From NCBI RefSeq assembly GCF_004216665.1, contig NZ_SGWY01000001.1:1-64000 (forward strand): DNA of 64,000 nucleotides, written 5' to 3'. This stretch comes from Agromyces ramosus (GTDB lineage Bacteria > Actinomycetota > Actinomycetes > Actinomycetales > Microbacteriaceae). Both the position numbers and the translations under genes were made by a program. Below, piece by piece: positions 28,787-40,554 of the stretch. Below the pieces are notes generated by a model that saw only the letters and a program-made list of their open reading frames with translations, searched no databases and was not told where the DNA came from. How positions within the stretch are numbered: position 1 is the first letter of the stretch; each line of letters begins with the position of its first letter.

Positions 28787-30313
28787 TCAGCACATCACGT
28801 CGGCGGCGGGCACGACGCCGTCCACCAGGTACTGCTCGACGGTGGCGTCCACGCACGCGTTGCCCTGGTTGAACGCGGTGTGGCCGTCGCCCTGCCGGGT
28901 GACGAGGATGCCGCTCTCGAGCTGCGATGCGACCGAGACCGCCCACTGGTACGGCGTCGACGGGTCGTTCGTGGTGCCGAGGACGAGGATGGGCGCCGCT
29001 CCGGGTGCGCTGACGGGGGCGGGCACCCGCTCCGAGGGGAACGGCCACGACAGGCAGGAGAGGTCGCTGTAGGCGAGGTAGGGCCCGAGGTGGGGCGCGG
29101 CATCCGCCAGCGCCCTGCCCTGCTCCTTCATCACGGCCACGTTGTTCTGCGCCGGGTAGTCGAGGCACCTGACCGCGCGCAGCGCCTCGAACAGGTTGCC
29201 CGTGTAGGAGCCGTCGGGCGAGCGGCCGTAGTACGCGTCGACGAGGGTCAGCGCGAACTCCGCCTGCCCGGCCAGGATCGTGGTGAAGAGCGTGTCGAGC
29301 GCGGGCCAGGTCTCGGCGTCGTAGAGGGGCGCCGCGATCGCGATCAGGAGGGTGTCCGCACCGACCGAGCGACCGTCGGTCGACGGGATCGGATTCTTCG
29401 AGACCGCATCGAGGAGGGCGCGCACCGTCGCCAGCGCCTCGTCGGGCGACCCCTGGAACGGGCACGTCGCCGCCGGGATGCACGCCCCGAGGTACGAACG
29501 GAGCGCCGTCTCGAGTCCCTGCGCCTGGGCGAGGGTGATCTGGGGCTCGCTGAGGCTCGGGTCGATCGCCCCGTCGAGCACCAGCCGCCCCACCTTGTCG
29601 GGAAAGGTTCCGGCATACACGGTTCCGAGGTACGCCCCGTACGAGTACCCGAGGTAGTCGAGCTGCTCCTCGCCGAGGACGGCGCGCAGCATGTCGAGGT
29701 CGCGGGCGGCGCTCACGGTGTCGACATTGGCGAGCAGTGCGCCCGTGTTCGCGAGGCACGCCTGCCCGAGCGAGTGCGTGAGCTCGTTCTGCCCCGTGAT
29801 CCACGAGTTGCTCCCGCGCGAGCCCGGCGGGATCCCGTACAGGATGCTGTCGAGCTCCGCCGGCTCGAGGCATTCGACGGCGGTCGAGCGCCCCACGCCG
29901 CGGGGATCGAAGCCGACGATGTCGTAGCGGTCCTGCACGGCCCCGGTCACCGCGACGTCGACGGACTCGGCCACGACGTCGTACCCGGATACCCCGGGGC
30001 CACCCGGGTTCACGAGCAGCGAGCCGACCTTGTCCTCCTTCGCAGGCTGGCGGATGAGCGCAAGCTCGATCTCGTCCGCCGACGGGTCGTCCCAGTCGAG
30101 GGGCGCTCGCGCCGTGGTGCAGAGGAAGTCGCCGCACTGGTCCCAGCGCAGGACCTGCGAGTAGTACGGCCGGAGTGCGGCGTCGACGTCCTCGGGGATC
30201 GGCGTCGATTCCTCGACGACGGGGAAGAACAACGAGAGTCCGCATCCGCTCGCCGTCGCGGCCAGCACGAGCGCCATCGCGGTCGCCAGCATCGACTTCG
30301 GTGCGCGTTCCAT
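28787..30313 (-). CDS. Secreted alpha/beta-hydrolase, tripeptidyl aminopeptidase-like lipoprotein
   Basis: 508-aa extracellular enzyme. A signal peptide with lipobox LAATASGC (Cys at about 24) indicates membrane anchoring by lipid. The alpha/beta-hydrolase triad is visible: Ser in YLGYSYGAYLG, Asp in LVLGTTNDPSTPYQWA, and His in RQGDGHTAF. The oxyanion segment LLVNPGGPGVSGYD and the C-terminal TAP-like domain match Streptomyces tripeptidyl aminopeptidase relatives. Eight or more cysteines probably form disulfides. ATG 30313 follows a GGGGGAC site. It is transcribed divergently from the Hsp70-like gene across a 266-nt region. Confidence 0.9.
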   Translation of the reverse strand: MERAPKSMLATAMALVLAATASGCGLSLFFPVVEESTPIPEDVDAALRPYYSQVLRWDQCGDFLCTTARAPLDWDDPSADEIELALIRQPAKEDKVGSLLVNPGGPGVSGYDVVAESVDVAVTGAVQDRYDIVGFDPRGVGRSTAVECLEPAELDSILYGIPPGSRGSNSWITGQNELTHSLGQACLANTGALLANVDTVSAARDLDMLRAVLGEEQLDYLGYSYGAYLGTVYAGTFPDKVGRLVLDGAIDPSLSEPQITLAQAQGLETALRSYLGACIPAATCPFQGSPDEALATVRALLDAVSKNPIPSTDGRSVGADTLLIAIAAPLYDAETWPALDTLFTTILAGQAEFALTLVDAYYGRSPDGSYTGNLFEALRAVRCLDYPAQNNVAVMKEQGRALADAAPHLGPYLAYSDLSCLSWPFPSERVPAPVSAPGAAPILVLGTTNDPSTPYQWAVSVASQLESGILVTRQGDGHTAFNQGNACVDATVEQYLVDGVVPAADVMC

Positions 30314-30418
30314 GATGTCCCCCAGTATGTGCGCGACGCCGCTCGGTCGCTCGGCCCTCGTTTTGGGGGTGCGCCCCGGTTCGGTCCGCGCACGGGCGCG
30401 CCGCCCAGAGATGGCGCG

Positions 30419-30440
30419 GAAACATGCTCGAAACATGCCT
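30419..30440. repeat. Tandem 11-bp repeat in the divergent region upstream of the Hsp70-like gene
   Basis: GAAACATGCTC (30419-30429) is followed at once by GAAACATGCCT (30430-30440). The period of 11 bp is about one helical turn. An operator is possible. Part of it (CGAAAC...CCTCGATG) recurs just upstream of iniB. Confidence 0.55.
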
Positions 30441-30473
30441 CGATGTACCCCGAAAGCGGGGTTCGGTGCACGG

Positions 30474-30512
30474 GGCAACCCGGTTGCCGCCACCCGGGGT
30501 ACGCGGGATACT
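30474..30512 (+). promoter_or_regulatory. Candidate promoter of the Hsp70-like gene with overlapping palindrome
   Basis: -35 TTGCCG (30484-30489), 17-nt spacer, -10 GATACT (30507-30512). A perfect 7-bp inverted repeat with a one-base centre (30474-30488) covers the upstream edge of the -35 and could be a repressor or activator site. Confidence 0.4.
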
Positions 30513-30579
30513 CGCCCCATTGGCGCATCTCCGACGCGTTGGAGGGCCGGGGAGCCATGCGTGAGGGGGCAAACTCATC

Positions 30580-32409
30580 GTGACGTCATTCGTGCTGGGG
30601 ATCGACATCGGCACGAGCTACACCGCTGCGGCCATCGGTCGGCGGCGCGCCGACGGCTCCGTGGACGTCGAACCGCTCGAGCTCGGTTCGCGCAAGGCCG
30701 CGGTGCCCACCGTGGTGTACCTCGGCGATGACGGCGGCGTCGTCGTCGGCGAGGCGGCCGAGCGGCGGGCGATCGATCAACCGGATCGGGTCGTGCGCGA
30801 GTTCAAGCGCCGCATCGGCGACGAGACGCCGATCATCGTGGGCGACCTCAGGGTCGCGGCCGAGGACATCTACGCGGTGCTCGCGCAGTGGGTCGTCGAG
30901 CGCGCCGAGGAGCACGAGGGCGAAGCGCCCGCGGTCATCGCGGTGTCCCATCCCGCGTCATGGGGTGAGCACCGCCTCGGACTGGTCCGAGGGGCCCTGG
31001 CCGGCGTCGGGCTCGGCGAGGTCGAACTGGTGAGCGAACCCGAGGCGGCCGGCCTGCACTACCTGGAGCAGGAGAAGGTCGGGACCGGTGAGGCGATCGC
31101 CGTCTACGACCTCGGCGGCGGCACGTTCGACGTCGCACTGCTCAGGAAGCAGGACGACGCGTTCCGCGTGATCGGCACCCCGTCGGGCATCGAGCACCTC
31201 GGCGGCGCGGACTTCGACCAGCGGATCTTCGAACACGTGCGCTCGCTCGCGGGTGGCGCTCTCGCCGACCTGGACGAGCGCACCCCCGACGAGGCGCTGG
31301 CCCTCGCACGCGTGCGGCGCGACTGCGTCGACGCGAAGGAGGCCCTGTCGTTCGACGGCGAGACGGTCGTTCCCGTGCTGCTGCTCGGCGCGCAGACGCG
31401 CGTGCGGCTCGTCCGCTCGGAGTTCGAGCAGATGATCGGCGACGACCTGCGACGCACGGTCGAGACCCTTCGGCAGGCGGTGACCGCGGCGGGACTCGAG
31501 CTCGACGACCTCACGACCGTCCTGCTCATCGGCGGCTCGTCCCGCATCCCCGCCGTCGCCCAACTCATCTCCGTCGAGCTCGAGCTGCCGGTCGCCATCG
31601 ACGCGGACCCCAAGGCCTCCATCAGCCTCGGCGCCGCCGCAGCGGCATCACGTCGACTCGAGCCGCTCGTGCCCGCACCGGAGCCGGACGACGGGCGGGG
31701 CGACACCGTGCCCGTCGCGGGCGCCGCAGCGGCCGCATTCGCCGGCGCCCCGGTCGGTGCCGGCGCAGCGGGCGCGGCCTCGCAGCGCATGTCCATCGGA
31801 TTGCGCGCGACCGTGCTCGCGGGGGTCGCCGCCGCGCTCCTCGCCGTCCTCATCCCCATCACGCCGCTGGGCGCCGGCACCCCCGAGGACTCGAACGAGG
31901 ATCCGGCCGACACCACCGGCGAACCGAACGGGGCGCCGGACGGCGCCTACGTGACCGGTGCCGCACCGCTCGCCGCACCGCTGGCCGACCCGGTCTTCTA
32001 CATCGACGAGCAGGCGGGGGCCGGAACGACGCCGGAGGACGACGCACCGCCGACCGGCGCGTACCGTCCGCTGTCGCCCGCCAACGGCGGCAGCGGCGGC
32101 ACGTCCACCGCTCCCGCGACGAGCGGGTCATCTGCTGCGGCGCAGGATCCACCGTCGGACACCACGACGTCGACCGACCCGGTGGTCGACACCGAGCCGG
32201 CGCCGGATCCGGCACCCGACCCGGTCCCCGATCCGTCGCCCGAGCCCGAGCCCGTGCCGGATCCCACTCCGGACCCGGTCCCCGACCCGACACCTGAGCC
32301 CGAGCCCGTGCCCGATCCCGCTCCCGACCCCGCTCCCGACCCGTCGCCCGAGCCGGAACCGGTTCCCGACCCGAGCCCGGACCCGACCGAGCCGCCGTCG
32401 GTGCCATGA
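30580..32409 (+). CDS. Membrane-anchored Hsp70-like ATPase with proline-rich external tail
   Basis: 609 aa. Residues 1-360 are an actin/Hsp70-type nucleotide-binding domain: phosphate-1 loop GIDIGTSYTA (residues 7-16), phosphate-2 VYDLGGGTFDVALL (about 175), and adenosine motif LIGGSSRIPAV (about 318). The beta-sandwich substrate-binding domain of DnaK is absent. Instead an Ala/Pro linker leads to one TM helix (about 408-430) and a roughly 180-residue acidic, Pro-rich tail with repeated P-D-P and P-E-P-E units, predicted outside the cell. The GTG at 30580 follows GAGGGGGC. Its stop overlaps the next gene by 4 nt (ATGA). Its role is unknown; the context suggests sensing envelope stress for the regulator encoded next to it. 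Confidence 0.85.
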   Translation: MTSFVLGIDIGTSYTAAAIGRRRADGSVDVEPLELGSRKAAVPTVVYLGDDGGVVVGEAAERRAIDQPDRVVREFKRRIGDETPIIVGDLRVAAEDIYAVLAQWVVERAEEHEGEAPAVIAVSHPASWGEHRLGLVRGALAGVGLGEVELVSEPEAAGLHYLEQEKVGTGEAIAVYDLGGGTFDVALLRKQDDAFRVIGTPSGIEHLGGADFDQRIFEHVRSLAGGALADLDERTPDEALALARVRRDCVDAKEALSFDGETVVPVLLLGAQTRVRLVRSEFEQMIGDDLRRTVETLRQAVTAAGLELDDLTTVLLIGGSSRIPAVAQLISVELELPVAIDADPKASISLGAAAAASRRLEPLVPAPEPDDGRGDTVPVAGAAAAAFAGAPVGAGAAGAASQRMSIGLRATVLAGVAAALLAVLIPITPLGAGTPEDSNEDPADTTGEPNGAPDGAYVTGAAPLAAPLADPVFYIDEQAGAGTTPEDDAPPTGAYRPLSPANGGSGGTSTAPATSGSSAAAQDPPSDTTTSTDPVVDTEPAPDPAPDPVPDPSPEPEPVPDPTPDPVPDPTPEPEPVPDPAPDPAPDPSPEPEPVPDPSPDPTEPPSVP

Positions 32410-34952
32410 GCCGGCCGCTCTCGTCGACGGGAGGGCGGAATCCGGGCACGGTCGGTTGGGAGGACGCCGCAGGGCTCGTGCGGCAGATGCTCGACGGGCG
32501 AGCGCCGGTGCACGCCGGGGTCACGGGGCCGGGAGGGTCGGGCAAGTCCACGCTGCTCGACGAGCTCGCGGTGGCGCTCCGCTCCGAGGGGATGGACGTC
32601 GTCCGCGGTCTCGACGAATACGGACGAGCGGACGTCGACCCCGAGCGCGTCGCGCTCCTCGTCGACGATGCCGAGCACCTCGGCGACGACGACGTCGCCG
32701 CGCTCACGAGCCTCATGCGCACGGACGGACCGCACGTCGTCGTCGCCTTCCGTCCGTGGCCGCGCTCGGAAGCCGTGGCCGGACTCGTCGATCGGCTCGG
32801 CAGGCAGCGCCCGCACCTCGTGCTGGAGCACCTGTCGACCTCCGACGTCCGCGAACGGGCGGTCGAGCTGCTCGGCGATCCGCTCCCCGACGACGCCGTC
32901 GACCGGGTCCTCGACCTCGCGCGCGGCAATGCCCGGTACGTCGACCACGTGCTCCTGGCGGTGCGCGAGGACGCATGGGACCTCCTGGAGACGAGTCCAC
33001 TGCCCTCGTCGGCACTGGAGCGGCTCCGGCATCGTCTGGATCGCCTCGATCCGGACCTCCTCGACTTCCTGGTCGCCCTGGCGGTCGGGTTCTCGGTGTC
33101 GGGACCGGCGCTGGCCACGGCACCCCGGTTCGCCGACGCGGACCTGCGCGCGCTCATGGCCGCGGCGCGGGCGACGGGGATGGTCTCCCCCGAGGGCACC
33201 CTGCTCCCGATCGTACGGATCACGATCATGCAGAGCACGCCGGACCACGAGCTGTGGCCGATGCGGAGCGAGCTGGTGGACGCCGTGGAGGCCGCGGGCG
33301 TTCCCCTGGGACCGACGGCACTCGAACTCGCCCGGCACGGGTTCCGCGACCCGCGCGTTGCGGAAGCACTCCGCGGACAGGCCGACGAGGCCCTGCCGAC
33401 CGAGCCCGTCGAGGCATGGGGGCTCTACGCCGCATCCATCGAGGCGGGTGGCGACGTCGCCGCCCTCGCCGGCCGACGCGCGCAGGCCGCGTGGGCGGCC
33501 GGCGACATCCGCGCCGCCGAGCGCCTCGTCGACGGACTGCTGACCGGCGCCGAGCACCCCGACCTTCCCCGGGTGATGAATGTCGCAGCTGCGATCTGGT
33601 CGCGGAAGGGGATGCTCCGGCGCGGCGCAGACGCGTACGTCGGCCTCACGGAGGCGGCGGGGTGCGCGGCAGCACCGCTCGCGGCCGTCTGCCTTGCCGT
33701 CCTGGGAGAGGTCGGGCAGGCCCGGGCCATCCTCGCCACCGCTCCCGACGTCGAGTATCCGACCTCGTCCCAGGTGGCGATCTCGATGACCGCCGACGGG
33801 ATCCTCGCCGCACTCGACGGCGCACCCGACCGCGCGCTGTCGGCGCTGCTCCAGGCCTCGAGCGTCATGGGCGAGTCCGGTGAGGCCCTTCCCCTGCCCG
33901 AGGTGCCGGCCGTCCTCGCCGCCCACGTGGCGCTCAACGCCGGCGAGCTCGGCATCGCCGCCGAGGTGCTCCAGTCCGCCGTCGACACCGTGCAGGGCGG
34001 ACCCGCGTTCCGGAACCGGCTTCGTCTAACGCAGGCGCTCGTCGCGTTGCGGGCGGATCGTCCCGCTCGCGCCCGCGCGCTGCTGGGGGCGGTCGACTCC
34101 TCGCAGCGCCCGCTCGGGCTCCGCGACGAGGTGCTCGCGCACGCCGTTCGGATCGGGCTCGCACGGCGCACCGACGACCTCACCACGCTCGTGCGGGCAT
34201 GGGATTCGGCGCGCCAGACGGTCGCGCGCATGCCGATCGACCTCACCGCCCTGCCCGCCCTCGCGGAGTTCGCGATCGCGGCGGCGCGCCTGCACGAGTC
34301 GCATTTCATCGAGGAGCCCCTCGCCTCCGCCTGGGAACTGCTCGAGCGCGTCGGCCGGCCCGCATCGTGGTGCACCAACCTGCACTGGGCCGAACTCCAG
34401 GCCGCCATCCTCCGCCGCGACCAGGCGAGCCTCGCGGCGCACGCCGCCGCGCTGTCCGATGCGGCGGCGGCGAATCGCGTGGCCAGCCGGCTCGCGGAGG
34501 CCGGTCGGGTCTGGAGCGCCGCCCTCGCGGGCGAGGTCGACGTCGATGCGGTGGAACGAGCCGTGCGCGACCTCGCCGCAGCCGGGTACCCGTGGGACGC
34601 GGGCCGGCTGGCCGGGCACGCCGCCGGGCGGGCGGCCGAGCATCGGGACACGCTCCAGCTCCTCGCGCTGGCCCGTGGCCTGCACCCGGAGGAGCAGCGC
34701 GCCGAGGACCGGCGAGAACCCGTCGATGAGCCCTCCAACCGTGCCCGTGACGACGGCGGGCTGAGCGCCAGGGAGCGGGAGGTGGCCCGACTCGTGCTCG
34801 AGGGCAAGACGTACGCGGAGATCGGATCCGCGATCTTCATCTCCCCCCGCACCGCCGAGCACCACATCGCGCGCATCCGCCGGCGCCTCGGCGTGACCAC
34901 CCGGTCGGAGCTGCTCGCCAGGCTGCGCCTCGTGCTCGACGAGGACGAGTGA
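32406..34952 (+). CDS. P-loop ATPase/LuxR-type regulator, IniR-like
   Basis: 848-aa large regulator of the MalT/STAND type. Walker A GPGGSGKST (residues 41-49) and Walker B VALLVDDAEHL (about 80) define the ATPase. A long helical, tetratricopeptide-like middle (about 330-770) probably senses a ligand. The C-terminal LuxR helix-turn-helix starts at GLSAREREVARLVLEGKTYA with SPRTAEHHIARIRRRLG as recognition part. In mycobacteria a comparable large LuxR regulator (IniR) next to iniBAC activates that operon, and this gene is placed similarly before iniB. Equivalence is inferred from architecture and position. It is translationally coupled to the Hsp70-like gene. Confidence 0.85.
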   Translation: MSRPLSSTGGRNPGTVGWEDAAGLVRQMLDGRAPVHAGVTGPGGSGKSTLLDELAVALRSEGMDVVRGLDEYGRADVDPERVALLVDDAEHLGDDDVAALTSLMRTDGPHVVVAFRPWPRSEAVAGLVDRLGRQRPHLVLEHLSTSDVRERAVELLGDPLPDDAVDRVLDLARGNARYVDHVLLAVREDAWDLLETSPLPSSALERLRHRLDRLDPDLLDFLVALAVGFSVSGPALATAPRFADADLRALMAAARATGMVSPEGTLLPIVRITIMQSTPDHELWPMRSELVDAVEAAGVPLGPTALELARHGFRDPRVAEALRGQADEALPTEPVEAWGLYAASIEAGGDVAALAGRRAQAAWAAGDIRAAERLVDGLLTGAEHPDLPRVMNVAAAIWSRKGMLRRGADAYVGLTEAAGCAAAPLAAVCLAVLGEVGQARAILATAPDVEYPTSSQVAISMTADGILAALDGAPDRALSALLQASSVMGESGEALPLPEVPAVLAAHVALNAGELGIAAEVLQSAVDTVQGGPAFRNRLRLTQALVALRADRPARARALLGAVDSSQRPLGLRDEVLAHAVRIGLARRTDDLTTLVRAWDSARQTVARMPIDLTALPALAEFAIAAARLHESHFIEEPLASAWELLERVGRPASWCTNLHWAELQAAILRRDQASLAAHAAALSDAAAANRVASRLAEAGRVWSAALAGEVDVDAVERAVRDLAAAGYPWDAGRLAGHAAGRAAEHRDTLQLLALARGLHPEEQRAEDRREPVDEPSNRARDDGGLSAREREVARLVLEGKTYAEIGSAIFISPRTAEHHIARIRRRLGVTTRSELLARLRLVLDEDE

Positions 34953-34966
34953 CCGTCGACGGATGT

Positions 34967-35028
34967 CCCCCATCCCCCCATCGCCGTCCCCCCACCCCCC
35001 TATCGGCCCCCACCCACGACCCCCCTCC
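34967..35028. other. Cytosine tract with quadruplex potential between the regulator gene and iniB
   Basis: The plus strand has runs of C5, C6, C6, C6, C5, C3 and C6 separated by 1-7 nt. The minus strand therefore carries more than four G-runs with short loops, for example runs at 34988-34993, 34995-35000, 35007-35011 and 35013-35015. It lies 15 nt past the regulator stop and about 130 nt upstream of iniB. Confidence 0.65.
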
Positions 35029-35154
35029 GCGGCACCGAAGGTACGGGGTTTCGCACCGATGCCGCACGCGCCAGGACACGACAGTCTTCTTCGTGGGGGC
35101 CGGCGTCGATGTCGGTCATCGAAACTCACACCTCGATGAGGAGGGGATCAGATC

Positions 35155-36330
35155 ATGGCGAACATCACAACGGCACTGCTCGACTTCCTGATGGGCTTGC
35201 TCAAGAGCCCGCAGGCCGGAGCCGACTTCGCAGCCGACCCGGACACGGCGCTGCAGAACGCCGGACTCCAGGGCATCTGCGCCGCAGACGTCGACGCGGT
35301 CCTGCCGGTCGCGCTCGACTTCTCGCCGGTCGGCAACCGCGAGTACGACACCGGCGGCAACGAGATCAACAGCGGCGCCTGGGGCGGCGGCGGCGGCGGT
35401 GGCGGCAGCCACGGCGGTGGCGGCGGCGACTGGGGCGGCGGCGGCGGTGGCGGCGGCCACCACGGCGGCGGCGGCGGTGGCGGTGGCCACCACGGCGGCG
35501 GCGGAGGCGACTACGCAGCAGCGAAGGCGAAGCTGCTCAGCGTCGTGAACAACTACTCGTACATCGATGACCGCGACGTCGTCAACGACCAGTCGACGAA
35601 CACCGCGATCTGGGCCGAGGACAGCATCGTCGGCGTCAACAACGAGGTCGATAACACGGCGACGAACGTCGGCGACGGCAGCATCGTCGCCACGACCGGT
35701 GGCACGATCATCGCCGGCAACACCGAGTACGACCTCGAGGTCGACATCGAGGACTCCTTCAACGAGGAGAACGACGTCGACATCGAGGACTCGTTCAACG
35801 ACAACTCCGACAACTCGACCGACAACTCGACGAACGTCCTGGTGAACGACTCGTTCAACACGGACAACTCGGTCGAGGTCGACATCGAGGACTCCTTCCA
35901 GGACAACTCGGTCGAGATCGAGGACTCCTTCCAGGACAACTCGACCGAGGTCGACATCGAGGACTCGTTCAACGAGACCGAGACCGACGTCGACGTCGAC
36001 ATCGAGGACTCGTTCAACGAGGACAACTCGGTCGACAACTCGACGAACACCGACGTGGACGTCGACATCGAGGACTCGTTCCAGGCGAACGACAACGTCG
36101 TGGACTCGTTCGACGACAACGTCGTCGTGGAGGACTCGTTCCAGGTCAACGACAACACCGTGGTCGAGGACAACGTCGTCGTCAACGACTCCCTCAACGA
36201 CAACAACGTCGCCGTCGACTCGTTCGACGACAACGTCGAGATCGAGGACTCGCTCAACGACAACACCGTCGAGACCGGCCCTGGCGACCAGGTCGAGGTC
36301 GAGGTCGAGGTCGAGGACGTCACCCTGTAG
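35155..36330 (+). CDS. iniB: IniB-like protein with poly-Gly and Asp-Ser-Phe repeats
   Basis: 391 aa. Residues 1-70 form a small conserved domain (ITTALLDFLMGLLKSPQAG, then DPDTALQNAGL) like the N-terminus of mycobacterial IniB. Residues 77-120 are almost only Gly with His/Trp/Asp. From about 195 to the end the chain is acidic with 11 DSF and 2 DSL units in the pattern D-I-E-D-S-F-[NQ]. No cysteine-rich or TM segment is evident after the first 60 residues. A strong GAGGAGGGG site precedes the ATG. The repeat part is less GC-rich and uses few codons. The biochemical role is unknown even in mycobacteria, where iniB is induced by cell-wall inhibitors. Confidence 0.85.
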   Translation: MANITTALLDFLMGLLKSPQAGADFAADPDTALQNAGLQGICAADVDAVLPVALDFSPVGNREYDTGGNEINSGAWGGGGGGGGSHGGGGGDWGGGGGGGGHHGGGGGGGGHHGGGGGDYAAAKAKLLSVVNNYSYIDDRDVVNDQSTNTAIWAEDSIVGVNNEVDNTATNVGDGSIVATTGGTIIAGNTEYDLEVDIEDSFNEENDVDIEDSFNDNSDNSTDNSTNVLVNDSFNTDNSVEVDIEDSFQDNSVEIEDSFQDNSTEVDIEDSFNETETDVDVDIEDSFNEDNSVDNSTNTDVDVDIEDSFQANDNVVDSFDDNVVVEDSFQVNDNTVVEDNVVVNDSLNDNNVAVDSFDDNVEIEDSLNDNTVETGPGDQVEVEVEVEDVTL

Positions 36331-36345
36331 TCACCGCACGAGACC

Positions 36346-36385
36346 GGTTCGGCCCGGCACGGAACACTCCGTGTCGGGCCGAACC
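36346..36385 (+). terminator. 18-bp hairpin between iniB and iniA
   Basis: 36346-36363 pairs with 36368-36385 over 18 bp with one G-U pair and a 4-nt loop, starting 15 nt after the iniB stop. A T-enriched stretch follows. It is strong enough to terminate or to stabilise iniB mRNA, so iniA/iniC are probably expressed below iniB or from read-through. Confidence 0.75.
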
Positions 36386-36435
36386 CACGTCTGTTCTGAT
36401 TGAATTGAGTCCAGCTGCGAAGGGGGAGCGCATCG

Positions 36436-38349
36436 ATGCGACAACTCATCGAACTCGTCGACCAGGGAATCGCTCTCGCGGGCAGCGGAGACCGTGCCGA
36501 CCTCCGCAGGAGGCTCGAGCAGACGAAGGACCGCCTGCTCGATCCGAGCATCCGGGTCATCGTCGTCGGTGAGTTCAAGCAGGGCAAGAGCCAGCTGGTG
36601 AACGCCCTGGTCAACGCCCCGGTGTGCCCGGTCGACGACGACATCGCCACCGCCGTGCCGACGAGCGTGCGCTACGGCGAGCACCCGGCGGCGTTCGTGC
36701 TCTCCCAGCGATCGAGCTCCGGCACGATCGAGTCCGGCGGCAGGGTCGAACGCACCGAGGTGGCCGTGCGGGAGCTCGCGCAGTTCGTGTCCGAGCGCGC
36801 GAAGCCCGAGCGCAACGGCGACCAGGAGGTCACCGGCGCCGAGGTGCTCCTCCCCCGCAAGCTCCTGCAGAGCGGGCTCACGCTCATCGACTCGCCCGGC
36901 GTCGGGGGCCTCACCTCCGCCCACGCCCTCACGACGCTCGCCGCGCTGCCGTCGGCCCACGCCATGCTGTTCGTGTCGGATGCCTCGCAGGAGTACACGG
37001 AGCCCGAGATCCAGTTCCTCCGCCACGCCATGCGGATCTCCCCGAACGTGGCGTGCGTGCTGACCAAGACCGACCTGTACCCGCGGTGGCGCCAGGTCGA
37101 GGAGCTGAACCGAGCCCACCTCGCCGCCATCGATCCGGCGATCCGGCAGTTCCCCCTCTCGTCCCAACTACGGCTCACCGCGGTCGGATCCTCGGACTCG
37201 GAGCTCAACGCGGAGTCCGGGTTCCCCGAGCTCATCGCCTACCTGCGCCGCGACATCGTGGGCAAGGCGGAGCTCCTGCAGCGGCGATCCACCGCGAGCG
37301 ACCTCCTGTCCACGACCGAGCACGTGCGGCTCGCCATCGACTCCGAGCTGAGCGCCCTGCAGAATCCCGAGAAGACGCCCGAGATCGTCGCCCAGCTGGA
37401 GGCGACGAAGGGCCGCGCCGACGAGCTTCGGCGGATCTCCTCGCGGTGGCAGATCACGCTGAACGACGGCGTCACCGATCTCATCGCCGACATGGAGCAC
37501 GACCTGCGCGACCGCATGCGATCGATCCAGCGGGAGGCGGAGGACTCGATCGACGAGGGCGACCCGGGCCCCGTCTGGGACCAGTTCGTCGAGTGGTTCG
37601 AACAGCGCGTCTCGGCGGCCGTCACGGACACGTTCGTGTGGACGCAGGAACGCGCGACGTGGCTCGCCGAGAAGGTGGCACGGCACTTCACCGAGGACGA
37701 GGTGGCCCTTCCCGTCATCAACGTGGATGACACGCGCGACGTGCTCGACACCGTCGGCGAGGTCGCCACGCTGGACTCGGGCCGGCTCGGCGCGATGCAG
37801 AAGTTCTACATCGGCCTCAAGGGGTCCTACGGCGGCGTCCTGATGGTCGGCATCATCACCGGCATCGTCGGGATGTCGCTCATCAACCCGCTCTCGCTGG
37901 CCGCCGGTGCCGTGATCGGACGCAAGGCGTACAAGGACGACACCGAGGCGCGCCTCCTGCGGCGACGCAACGAGGCCAAGATGCTCATCCGGCGCCAGGT
38001 CGACGAGATCATCTTCCAGGTCGGCAAGCAACTGCGGGACCGCCTCCGCATCGTGCAGCGCACCACTCGCGACCACTTCACCGCGATCGCCGACGAGCAC
38101 CACCGCTCGCTCGCCGACTCGGTGCTCGCCGCGCAGAAGGCGGCGACGATGTACGCCACCGAACGCGACAAGCGCGTCACCACGCTGCGTCGGGACCTTG
38201 AACGGGTCGACGCGCTCACGAAGCGCGCCCGCGCCATCGAGACCGGACGCGGGCCCGCCGACGCCGCCGGGAAGGCCACCGCGGCGAAGGAGCCCCCGGC
38301 CTCCCGAGTCGCGGCGGCCGAGCCGGCAGTCGGGACGGCTCCGGCGTGA
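36436..38349 (+). CDS. iniA: Dynamin-like GTPase, IniA-like
   Basis: 637-aa large GTPase. G1 is GEFKQGKS (residues 45-52), G3 DSPGVGG (about 153), G4 TKTD (about 210). Long helical segments form the neck and trunk. The hydrophobic stretch GGVLMVGIITGIVGMSLINP with its continuation (about 465-495) is the likely membrane paddle. Mycobacterial IniA is a membrane-remodelling dynamin, and this protein has the same layout. ATG 36436 follows GGGGGAG. The C-terminus has an Ala/Lys-rich tail. The stop overlaps iniC by 4 nt. Confidence 0.88.
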   Translation: MRQLIELVDQGIALAGSGDRADLRRRLEQTKDRLLDPSIRVIVVGEFKQGKSQLVNALVNAPVCPVDDDIATAVPTSVRYGEHPAAFVLSQRSSSGTIESGGRVERTEVAVRELAQFVSERAKPERNGDQEVTGAEVLLPRKLLQSGLTLIDSPGVGGLTSAHALTTLAALPSAHAMLFVSDASQEYTEPEIQFLRHAMRISPNVACVLTKTDLYPRWRQVEELNRAHLAAIDPAIRQFPLSSQLRLTAVGSSDSELNAESGFPELIAYLRRDIVGKAELLQRRSTASDLLSTTEHVRLAIDSELSALQNPEKTPEIVAQLEATKGRADELRRISSRWQITLNDGVTDLIADMEHDLRDRMRSIQREAEDSIDEGDPGPVWDQFVEWFEQRVSAAVTDTFVWTQERATWLAEKVARHFTEDEVALPVINVDDTRDVLDTVGEVATLDSGRLGAMQKFYIGLKGSYGGVLMVGIITGIVGMSLINPLSLAAGAVIGRKAYKDDTEARLLRRRNEAKMLIRRQVDEIIFQVGKQLRDRLRIVQRTTRDHFTAIADEHHRSLADSVLAAQKAATMYATERDKRVTTLRRDLERVDALTKRARAIETGRGPADAAGKATAAKEPPASRVAAAEPAVGTAPA

Positions 38350-39932
38350 CCGTCCGCGTGCTCGACGAGGCGCACGCACTCCTCGACGCCGCCGCCGCGG
38401 AGTACCACGACGACGCCGAAGCGCTGCGACAGCTCCACGAGCACTCCGCCCGCCTCGGCGAACCGCTGCGCGTGGCCATCGCCGGAATGGTGAAGGCCGG
38501 CAAGTCGACCCTCCTGAACGCGATCATCGGCGAGGAGATCGCCCCGACCGACGCCGGCGAGTGCACGAAGGTCATCACCTGGTACCGCCATGGGGCGACC
38601 CCGCGCATCACCATGCACCTCCGGGCGGGCGGCGCCCGATCCCTGCCCGTCCGTCGCGACGACGGCCAGCTGGTCATCGACCTCGGTGCCACCCCCGCCG
38701 ACGACGTCGAGCGGATCGACGTGGAGTGGCCGTCGAAGCGCCTCGAGGACGTGACGCTGATCGACACGCCGGGCATCGCATCGCTGTCCGCGGACGTCTC
38801 GGCGCGGTCGGCGGCCTTCCTGACGCCGGTGGAGTCGCCGTCGGAGGCGGACGCGATCATCTACCTGATGCGCCACCTGCATTCGACGGACCTCGGATTC
38901 CTCTCGGCCTTCCACGACACGTCGGTGGGCCGGTCCGCCACCGTCAACGCCATGGCCGTGCTCTCGCGCGCCGACGAGATCGGCGCCGGACGCATCGACG
39001 CCCTCCTCTCCGCACGCACCATCGCCGAGCGCTACCGCACCGACGGCGCGCTCCGGTCGCTCGCGCTCGATGTCGTGCCCATCGCCGGCCTCGTGGCGCA
39101 GTCGGCGCGCACACTGCGCCAGCACGAGTTCGACGCCCTCCGGCAGGTCGCGCGACTGGGGCGCGACGCCCGCGAACGGCTGCTGGTCTCCGTCGACCGG
39201 TTCGTGCGGGCGGACGCCGGCATCGACGTGTCCGCCGAGGATCGCATGGGCCTGCTCGACCGCTTCGGGATGTTCGGCATCCGCATGTCCGCCGTCGCGA
39301 TCCGGTCCGGATACGACGACTCGACCGACCTCGCCGATGAGCTGTACCGCCGGAGCGGCATGGAGGACCTGCTGCGCCTCGTCTCCGATCAGTTCAGGTC
39401 GCGAGCGGACGCGTTGAAGGCCCGAACGGCCCTCACCGCGCTCAGCACCCTCGTCGAGCGCCGTCCCACGACGAACTCCCGGGAACTCGCGGGCGCGGTC
39501 GAGCGGCTGGAGGCGAACGCGCACGAGCTGCGGGAACTCAGCCTCCTCGCGGCGGCGCGCACCACGGGCCTCGGCCTGCCGCCCGAGGAATCCGCCGAGG
39601 CGGAGCGCCTCATCGGGGGTGCCGGGACGTCGGCGCCCCGACGCCTCGGCCTTCCCGACGACGCCCCGCCCGACGAGGTGCGGCACGAGGCATCCGTGGC
39701 CTTGCAGCGATGGCGCTCGATGGCGGGGAGCCCGCTGCTCGACCGCGGCGCCGTCGAAGCCTGCCAGGCGGTGATCCGCTCGTGCGAGGCCCTCGTGGTG
39801 GGCGTCGCGCCGGCCTCAGTCGAACGCCGCCAGCTGCGCCTCGTCCTTCATCCGGAACCACCGGTGGGCGGGCGCGACCAGGCACAGGACCCATCCGACC
39901 ACGGCGAGCGCGAGGCCGGCCAGGAGCAGTAG
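38346..39932 (+). CDS. iniC: Dynamin-like GTPase, IniC-like
   Basis: 528-aa GTPase paired with IniA. G1 is GMVKAGKS (residues 47-54), a conserved TxxxT switch-like segment ECTKVITWY follows, G3 is DTPGIAS (about 140), G4 LSRADEIG (about 205). No long hydrophobic paddle is visible, unlike IniA, so a heteromeric complex in which IniA contacts membrane is plausible. The GTG at 38346 overlaps the iniA stop (GTGA). Its last 117 nt lie antisense to the convergent membrane-protein gene, and the last 38 residues are low-complexity and probably not conserved. Confidence 0.85.
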   Translation: MTVRVLDEAHALLDAAAAEYHDDAEALRQLHEHSARLGEPLRVAIAGMVKAGKSTLLNAIIGEEIAPTDAGECTKVITWYRHGATPRITMHLRAGGARSLPVRRDDGQLVIDLGATPADDVERIDVEWPSKRLEDVTLIDTPGIASLSADVSARSAAFLTPVESPSEADAIIYLMRHLHSTDLGFLSAFHDTSVGRSATVNAMAVLSRADEIGAGRIDALLSARTIAERYRTDGALRSLALDVVPIAGLVAQSARTLRQHEFDALRQVARLGRDARERLLVSVDRFVRADAGIDVSAEDRMGLLDRFGMFGIRMSAVAIRSGYDDSTDLADELYRRSGMEDLLRLVSDQFRSRADALKARTALTALSTLVERRPTTNSRELAGAVERLEANAHELRELSLLAAARTTGLGLPPEESAEAERLIGGAGTSAPRRLGLPDDAPPDEVRHEASVALQRWRSMAGSPLLDRGAVEACQAVIRSCEALVVGVAPASVERRQLRLVLHPEPPVGGRDQAQDPSDHGEREAGQEQ

Positions 39933-40466
39933 CTCCACGAGCGCGCCCCAGTCGCCGACCGTGATGAACGCCGACGCCACGAGCACCACGCCCGTCTGGA
40001 GCACCAGCACGGGCAGTTGCACCCATCGGGCACCGCCACGCCGATTCATCACGAAGGCGAGCAGGACCGCCTCGATCGTGATGACGAGCCCGAGCCCGGC
40101 GATGCTCACCCAGTACACGAGATCGACGAGCGCGGACACGTCGTCCTCGGAGTACCCGGGCGCGAGGCGCCCGATCGTCTCGGTGAGCTCGGTGATCAGC
40201 GTGTCCCGCGAGATGAAGGCGATGAACACGGCCGCGCCGCCGAGCACGAAGCTGAGGATCCAGAGCGTGCGCGCGACCGTGACCACCCTGGGCACCGGAA
40301 TCCTGCGGAGCACGGGAGGCCTGGTGTCGTCGGACATGACCGGGCGAGGCGGCGGCGGCGGACCGTCGTCGTCGTCGCGGGGCGGCGCGAGCGGCATCCG
40401 CTCGGCCCGTGCCGACCCCCGCTCATCGGCGTCGTCGACCGGCGGCTGCGTCTCACGATCCCCCAT
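39816..40466 (-). CDS. Four-helix membrane protein, unknown function
   Basis: 216 aa. A 50-residue acidic, Pro-rich cytosolic N-terminus (with a PPPPPRP run) precedes four hydrophobic helices, starting near VTVARTLWILSFVLGG, VSIAGLGLVITIEAVLL, VQLPVLVLQTGVVLVA and LVELLLLAGLALAVVG. I do not recognise a family. ATG 40466 is 7 nt after a TATATT hexamer (40479-40474), again a leaderless arrangement; the TTG further up would lie next to that hexamer. Its 3' end overlaps the iniC 3' end by 117 nt on the opposite strand, so the two transcripts are complementary there. Confidence 0.75.
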   Translation of the reverse strand: MGDRETQPPVDDADERGSARAERMPLAPPRDDDDGPPPPPRPVMSDDTRPPVLRRIPVPRVVTVARTLWILSFVLGGAAVFIAFISRDTLITELTETIGRLAPGYSEDDVSALVDLVYWVSIAGLGLVITIEAVLLAFVMNRRGGARWVQLPVLVLQTGVVLVASAFITVGDWGALVELLLLAGLALAVVGWVLCLVAPAHRWFRMKDEAQLAAFD

Positions 40467-40473
40467 ACCCAGC

Positions 40474-40479
40474 AATATA
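40474..40479 (-). promoter_or_regulatory. -10 hexamer of the four-helix membrane protein gene
   Basis: TATATT on the minus strand, 7 nt before the ATG at 40466. Confidence 0.45.
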
Positions 40480-40554
40480 CGACAGGGGTCGATCGGGGCA
40501 TGGTCGCAGCGGATGCCGCGTCCGGGCGAGTCGGCGACGCGGCCACGCGCCCGC

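Follow-up and report, generated by a model that had tools for sequence, protein, structure and literature searches.

In the actinobacterium Agromyces ramosus, an Hsp70-like gene heads a cluster of genes related to mycobacterial iniBAC, a classic example of an envelope-stress operon induced by drugs; for its regulator, IniR, trehalose and ATP have been proposed as signals. The cluster occupies positions 30580 to 39932 (+ strand) of the 64,000-nucleotide stretch that we analyzed (the window; contig NZ_SGWY01000001.1, assembly GCF_004216665.1). Judged by sequence comparison, it is an ini module (IniR-iniBAC) in which the Hsp70 gene is a conserved extra member, and the association of the Hsp70 gene with ini genes is real and well conserved. 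As for the role of the Hsp70-like protein, we tentatively favor, at slightly less than an even chance, a model in which the Hsp70-like gene and iniR form a sensing and regulating unit, iniB, iniA, and iniC form an induced effector unit, and the membrane-held Hsp70 domain gates IniR.

The five genes lie on one strand (+), and all reading frames are open at the expected coordinates: the Hsp70-like gene (30580 to 32409; 609 amino acids), the iniR homologue (32406 to 34952; 848 amino acids), iniB (35155 to 36330; 391 amino acids), a gene for an IniA-type dynamin (36436 to 38349; 637 amino acids), and a gene for a second dynamin in the iniC position (38346 to 39932; 528 amino acids). The junctions are, in gene order, a 4-nucleotide (nt) overlap, 202 nt, 105 nt, and another 4-nt overlap. 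A first-pass annotation, made from the letters of the window alone, had described five same-strand genes with three of the four junctions overlapping or within 110 nt and had named an Hsp70-like ATPase, an IniR-like regulator, IniB, and two dynamins; the open reading frame coordinates bear out the layout, and profile and structure matches (described below) bear out the names.

To see how widely Hsp70 accompanies ini clusters, we inspected three sets of loci. Among 394 genomes sampled from the class, IniB_NTERM matched in 40 (37 over the cut-off) and IniR, at E ≤ 1e-40, in 38. Every one of these 38 IniR-positive genomes has an Hsp70-like gene within the ini cluster, and in 28 this gene immediately precedes iniR in the same orientation. 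Weak, below-cut-off IniB matches (G161, G205, and G245) were left out of the cluster inspection, and around another weak match (G070, stretch L022) no ini gene is present. The second set comes from genus g41 of family f22, here called Mycobacterium type, a label taken from its IniR passing the NCBI cut-off. IniR was found there at E ≤ 1e-100 in 81 of 118 genomes; nine of these had been taken earlier, 19 loci near contig ends or fragmentary were left out, and 53 were examined. Hsp70 fell within the initial stretch in 44 of the 53; an automatic rule scored it as immediately preceding iniR in 37 and missed one additional adjacent pair (L237). Six of the nine loci initially without Hsp70 carry it no more than 3 kb beyond iniC, and the other three (L203, L238, and L241) are cut by contig ends and were dropped from the testable loci; in L238 and L241, Hsp70 is not between iniR and iniB. 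All 50 testable Mycobacterium-type loci therefore have the gene, 38 directly upstream of iniR and 12 beside or near iniC. The third set, the named loci, consists of the best 80 of 569 relatives and spans Agromyces, Microbacterium, Arthrobacter and its relatives, Georgenia, Geodermatophilus, Pseudonocardiales, and a Rhodococcus. The automatic count found Hsp70 in 75 of the 80, directly upstream of iniR in 74; in L131 the gene is present but masked by a run of N, L166 has a fragment of it at a contig end, and three loci (L147, L158, and L178) begin at iniR and are untestable. In M. tuberculosis, the cluster is not known to include the Hsp70 gene, and Rv2264c is presumably a relative encoded elsewhere.

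The first-pass annotation had made its proposal depend on conservation of the Hsp70-like gene beside iniB in relatives. The gene accompanies the ini genes in 38/38 class-sample genomes, 50/50 testable Mycobacterium-type loci, and 77/77 testable named loci (among the best 80 of 569), in sets that partly overlap (L102/L020, L103/L015, and L129/L087) and whose related species are not independent; the proposal thus survives the sequence-based part of its own test. The annotation had also claimed translational coupling of the Hsp70-like gene to iniR. Where the two genes adjoin, the data are consistent with this: in 95 of the 102 adjacent pairs, iniR has a start codon no more than 30 nt before or after the Hsp70 stop, a count that took the start codon nearest to the Hsp70 stop and is biased toward tight coupling. 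The clusters in which Hsp70 is located elsewhere speak against a simple one-to-one coupling.

Presence and absence within Agromyces follow the same pattern. At thresholds of E ≤ 1e-40 for Hsp70 and E ≤ 1e-60 for the IniA-type dynamin, both occur in the same 9 of 60 Agromyces genomes, so that the two agree in 60/60, and IniR and IniB each occur in 8. In the ninth genome (G044), Hsp70 and the dynamins sit at two contig ends, and iniR and iniB would thus fall in the assembly gap. We compared the corresponding chromosomal site in 13 genomes, 12 without the module and one (G036) that carries it at another site. In 13/13, the genes for Lhr helicase and HisA are near neighbors, the interval that separates them contains no ini genes, and a decarboxylase gene, where found (10/13), lies 0.9 to 1.8 kb from hisA. 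This comparison indicates that the ini module is gained and lost as one cassette. The ini cluster of G036 (L017), at its other chromosomal site, shows the inverted-dynamin arrangement of the Microbacterium loci, which suggests a separate acquisition.

The Hsp70-like protein begins with an Hsp70-type nucleotide-binding domain (residues 1 to 360; 30580 to 31659). PF00012 matches at E = 1.3e-47 and covers model positions 1 to 372 of 599 only; the AlphaFold2 model is confident throughout this part (block means of the predicted confidence score, pLDDT, at least 90), and Foldseek pairs it with structure 2v7y (E = 3.4e-29). In an alignment to the genome's own DnaK, the equivalents of D8, K70, E171, D194, T199, and D201 are all retained (E. 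coli DnaK numbering). We saw no substrate-binding domain: the PF00012 match ends at 372/599, the protein scores below the DnaK equivalog cut-offs, and beyond approximately residue 360 AlphaFold2 shows disorder except for a low-confidence helix. This helix is a predicted membrane helix (residues 409 to 424; 31804 to 31851), with hydropathy rising from approximately residue 405 and low pLDDT. Beyond it follows a predicted disordered tail (31861 to 32406) of 179 amino acids, 28% Pro, 13% Asp, and 7% Glu by composition, for which the repeat search returned tandem repeats of 54-base units at 32192 to 32388. With a cytosolic nucleotide-binding domain and a single helix, the tail would be on the extracytoplasmic side. 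The first-pass description of an Hsp70-like ATPase with a transmembrane segment and an external tail thus holds firmly for the nucleotide-binding domain, as a low-confidence prediction for the helix, and by presumed topology for the external side. The protein shares the nucleotide-binding fold and catalytic residues of DnaK/Hsp70 chaperones but has a predicted membrane helix and a Pro-rich tail in place of their substrate-binding domain.

These features recur unevenly in relatives. The motif DLGGGTFD is intact in 8/8 Agromyces copies, 11/37 other class-sample copies (one of the 11 being the true DnaK of G201), 50/70 named copies, and 0/49 further Mycobacterium-type copies. For the same sets, the membrane-helix score is reached in 8/8, 30/37, 62/70, and 40/49 copies; the tail is at least 60 residues long in 8/8, 30/37, 58/70, and 39/49; and it contains at least 15% Pro in 8/8, 25/37, 55/70, and 33/49, the shortfall in the helix and tail counts being due partly to cut gene copies. 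Because DLGGGTFD is lost in many copies, ATP hydrolysis is excluded as a general mechanism. The protein is nevertheless kept where hydrolysis is unlikely, as in the mycobacterial-type copies that persist despite lost catalytic motifs, which makes a role in binding or as a scaffold more likely than chaperone activity. A phylogenetic tree gives no safe rooting of the locus Hsp70s against DnaK; in one stretch with two Hsp70 matches (L085, from genome G201), one clusters with that genome's own DnaK and the other is the ini-cluster copy. In clusters with two copies, the tail is Thr-rich in the copy upstream of iniR and Pro/Ala-rich in the other.

The regulator matches the NCBIfam IniR model NF038181 at E = 1.4e-107, with residues 28 to 845 aligned to model positions 12 to 826 of 827. 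As its score of 361 bits is below the equivalog cut-off of 750, it is an IniR homologue rather than a certified equivalog; the cut-off is passed in 18 of the 38 IniR-positive class-sample genomes. Its architecture consists of an N-terminal P-loop ATPase, a middle region, and a C-terminal LuxR-type helix-turn-helix (residues 786 to 836; 34761 to 34913), placed by GerE and alignment. IniB passes the IniB_NTERM model NF038175 (64.6 bits; cut-off, 40) and is the only such gene in the genome. In its predicted model, the confident structure is limited to a helical N-terminal domain (helices within residues 4 to 55; 35164 to 35319) and one more helix (residues 118 to 133), and this fold has no match in the PDB. 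A Gly/His-rich linker follows, and then acidic Asn/Asp/Ser repeats that are predicted to be disordered; we considered a beta-solenoid for the repeats, which the model does not support. At the DNA level, the Gly/His-rich stretch and the repeats, of approximately 30 bases each, are located at 35372 to 36320. The middle part of IniB (DDRD..NDQS..IWA) is common to several families though predicted to be disordered. Dynamin_N is present in both GTPases directly after iniB. Residues 3 to 590 of 637 in the first align with structure 6j72, the IniA of M. smegmatis (E = 9.3e-137); the second (Dynamin_N, E = 5.1e-13) adjoins IniA in relatives. Placing residues by count on the structure alignment, with an inferred offset of 2, the P-loop serine S50 and the lipid-binding R488, as given in the available text on M. 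smegmatis IniA (PMC6715688), are conserved in the Agromyces dynamin, whereas the R63 position is Pro.

A dyad search of 66 nonredundant iniB upstream regions returned a common element, [T]AGGGG-N4-8-CCCCGATGCC (short form, GGGG-N4-8-CCCCGATG). The A. ramosus instance, GGGG-N7-CCGATGC (35045 to 35062, + strand), lies 110 nt before the iniB start, and in relatives the conserved element keeps close to this distance. In 26 of 42 training sequences, TAnGnT occurs 20 to 21 nt after CCGATG; the −10 position of A. ramosus, ACAGTCTT, departs from it. With a matrix whose 42 source sequences are themselves members of the 115-gene iniB set, a score of at least 10 bits was reached upstream of 70% of 115 nonredundant iniB genes and 2% of shuffles, compared with 13% for Hsp70 (shuffles, 2%), 5% for iniA (2%), 3% for iniC (4%), and 1% for iniR (2%). 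The main Hsp70 copy would thus mostly not be part of the induced unit, as expected of a sensor, and the pattern suggests two transcription units, Hsp70-iniR and iniB-iniA-iniC behind the conserved element. In an independent set of Mycobacterium-type sequences, the best match fell at −135 to −85 in 75 of 95 iniB upstream regions and in 20 of 95 shuffles; the interval was picked after the first set, and the 95 sequences themselves are absent from the matrix training. The same matrix gave 27/52 for Hsp70 (shuffles, 18), 19/51 for iniR (8), 9/44 for iniA (13), and 8/42 for iniC (8), and the raised Hsp70 and iniR values are partly expected because both genes face iniB across one gap there.

Support for the element comes from position and conservation, as its count in the window is near chance (8 found with at most one mismatch versus 6.04 expected). 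Its DNA fold is unremarkable for single-strand structure (z = −0.73). As chromatin immunoprecipitation sequencing (ChIP-seq) placed an IniR peak directly before iniBAC, according to the available text of the mycobacterial study by Boot et al. (2017; PMC5760070), the GGGG-N-CCCC type element before iniB is a natural candidate for the IniR operator. A literature search for inverted repeats in the iniBAC promoter returned, in the text accessible, a single match, which concerns a different motif of the regulator HpoR. Similar GGGG-N-CCCCGATG sites also precede iniB genes without iniR in the stretch (L064, L068, and L070). Upstream of the Hsp70 gene (30470 to 30514), Agromyces genomes share a distinct though similar element, GGGG..CC(C/T)GTTGCC, followed by GGGATACTCG in A. 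ramosus, L018, and L016, with the first part also in L014; it is possibly a separate promoter or a weak feedback site.

In the model that we favor, the Hsp70-type domain would lie at the cytoplasmic side of the membrane, and its Pro-rich tail would extend into the wall. In unstressed cells, the domain would either keep IniR inactive or be required to ready it. Damage to the wall, increased ATP, or free trehalose would alter the contact between Hsp70 and IniR, and the freed IniR would bind the GGGG-N-CCCC element and turn on IniB and the two dynamins, which would repair or reshape the membrane. The domain could read an ATP surge where its catalytic residues are intact, and the tail could report on the wall, though its composition varies. 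That Hsp70 touches IniR, that it senses stress, and which of the two controls the other are all inferred points of the model; the output is probably membrane remodeling, since IniA cuts membranes in vitro (PMC6715688, in the parts available). IniR has been described as a MalT-like ATPase-LuxR regulator, and trehalose induces iniBAC (PMC5760070, available sections). E. coli MalT, likewise a large regulator of the ATPase-LuxR type, has a partner at the membrane, MalK (PMC5760070, available sections). The Hsp70 domain seems well placed to hold IniR in a comparable manner because MalT is held by its membrane partner and Hsp70 is encoded beside IniR. MalK is an ABC transporter ATPase, whereas the Agromyces partner would be an Hsp70 domain, by a contact that we infer. 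In Mycobacterium bovis BCG, the induction of iniBAC by wall inhibitors follows an ATP surge and is suppressed with it (PMC6104191, available sections).

Several observations weigh against this model. In 10 of the 38 class-sample genomes (G105, G110, G132, G149, G165, G177, G180, G201, G389, and G428, the G201 cluster being split between contigs) and in 12 of the 50 testable Mycobacterium-type loci, Hsp70 occupies another place in the cluster than immediately before iniR, often beside iniC. The loss of DLGGGTFD extends to all 49 further Mycobacterium-type copies. Copies that fall short of the helix threshold number 7/37, 8/70, and 9/49 (a part of these being truncated), the tail is just 11 to 44 amino acids long in four Pseudonocardiaceae copies (L150, L151, L152, and L176), and it is Pro-poor in three copies of family f31 (L094 to L096). 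The element matches before Mycobacterium-type Hsp70 and iniR also exceed shuffles. Finally, overexpressing IniR is enough to induce iniBAC, and the operon also responds in M. marinum and M. tuberculosis, two species without mention of a dnaK-like gene at iniR in the available sections of the study (PMC5760070).

The main rival, which we consider rather unlikely, places the membrane-anchored Hsp70 on the effector side, where it would recruit, arrange, or recycle the dynamins or IniB at damaged membrane and would have no part in IniR regulation. Hsc70 acts on coat assemblies in an analogous manner. The best support for such a role comes from the Hsp70 copies beside iniC: copies that are not beside iniR either adjoin iniC, lie close to it, or diverge from iniB, and in five class-sample clusters (L059, L060, L065, L066, and L071) iniC is immediately followed, in the same orientation, by a second Hsp70 copy, which is thus probably in the induced unit. 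The complete agreement of Hsp70 and dynamin presence across the 60 Agromyces genomes also fits. An effector role is harder to reconcile with the usual place of the main copy directly upstream of iniR (28/38 in the class sample and 74 of the best 80 of 569), with the region before Hsp70 mostly being without the iniB element (13% versus 70%), and with the lack of a substrate-binding domain. Quite improbable, in our judgment, is that IniR alone senses stress, with its own domains responding to trehalose or ATP, the anchored Hsp70 being a wall-membrane link or an IniB-handling protein within the cassette. The sufficiency of IniR overexpression and the inducing effect of trehalose (PMC5760070, available sections), the proposal of IniR's own ATPase domain as the ATP reader (PMC6104191, available sections), and the differences in tail composition between families are in its favor; the retention of the Hsp70 domain in testable loci even after its catalytic residues are lost argues against it and suggests a specific contact. 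That the gene is an ordinary DnaK paralogue beside iniR by accident, with no role, has nothing to recommend it beyond Hsp70 being a common family and is scarcely credible, contradicted by conservation in 38/38 class-sample genomes, by joint presence and absence across 60 Agromyces genomes with gain and loss of the cassette at one site, and by a genome with just two PF00012 genes (DnaK and the locus copy), which puts the chance of an Hsp70 neighbor within 10 kb at ∼1%.

The Agromyces cluster has in common with the mycobacterial iniBAC/IniR system, as given in the available sections of PMC5760070, the regulator, the IniB N-terminal domain, the IniA and IniC dynamins, and the location of iniR near iniB; where IniR binds before iniB in mycobacteria by ChIP-seq, relatives have the conserved element. 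Unlike the mycobacterial system, it is headed by an Hsp70-type membrane protein, its iniR and iniB run in the same direction, its IniR falls below the equivalog cut-off, and the genome holds a single IniB_NTERM gene. The first-pass annotation had called the pairing with an Hsp70-like protein a new element. In part this was anticipated, since one sentence in the available text of PMC5760070 mentions, without analysis, a dnaK-like gene directly downstream of iniR in M. smegmatis; the generality of the pairing, by contrast, is not described in the literature that we searched, which covers few subscription papers, nor treated in the available parts of PMC12930390, PMC6391361, and PMC13413693. The Agromyces Hsp70 gene is upstream of iniR and has a predicted helix and tail, whereas the M. 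smegmatis gene is downstream, a placement that fits the second Hsp70 copies after iniR in some clusters (L072, L073, L075, L078, and L083).

The presence of a membrane-anchored Hsp70 domain in every testable ini cluster examined makes it a leading candidate for the envelope-damage sensor, and the element before iniB is a concrete operator candidate. If our model is true, an Hsp70 domain that has lost the chaperone half would serve in transmembrane signaling. An extended form of this model, which we regard as unlikely, is that ini-bearing actinobacteria have converted the nucleotide-binding domain of Hsp70 into a gate across the membrane for a STAND-type activator of transcription, an ATP-reading switch where catalysis is intact and a pseudo-ATPase in mycobacteria. 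Such a gate would be the missing upstream sensor of iniBAC and could explain the need for an ATP burst.

Between iniB and iniA lies a strong hairpin (36346 to 36385, + strand) with 18-nt arms, 94% complementary, and a 4-nt loop. Hairpins recur at this position in relatives while differing in sequence between families: by z scores from mononucleotide shuffles, 97 of 121 nonredundant gaps are below −2 (A. ramosus, −4.2), compared with 4/40 iniB upstream regions and 9/60 random stretches. An excess of IniB over IniA and IniC has been inferred from RNA sequencing in mycobacteria (PMC5760070, available sections), and the hairpin may set it.

An Rfam scan of 30000 to 40500 returned no family at the gathering score, and a scan of viral contigs returned no relative of IniR. 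The locus seems unlikely to be a defense system: PADLOC gave weak Leo matches (the dynamins against LeoA/LeoBC, at most 58 bits) and helix-turn-helix and P-loop matches for IniR, and none of its models matched the Hsp70-like protein or IniB. Upstream of the cluster, a gene for a TAP-like alpha/beta hydrolase (28787 to 30520) travels with the ini cassette in A. ramosus and G044 and was not found at 13/13 empty sites. One record among the named loci (L143), titled Planococcus sp. APC 4015, has a Microbacterium-type ini cluster and is probably mislabeled or contaminated.

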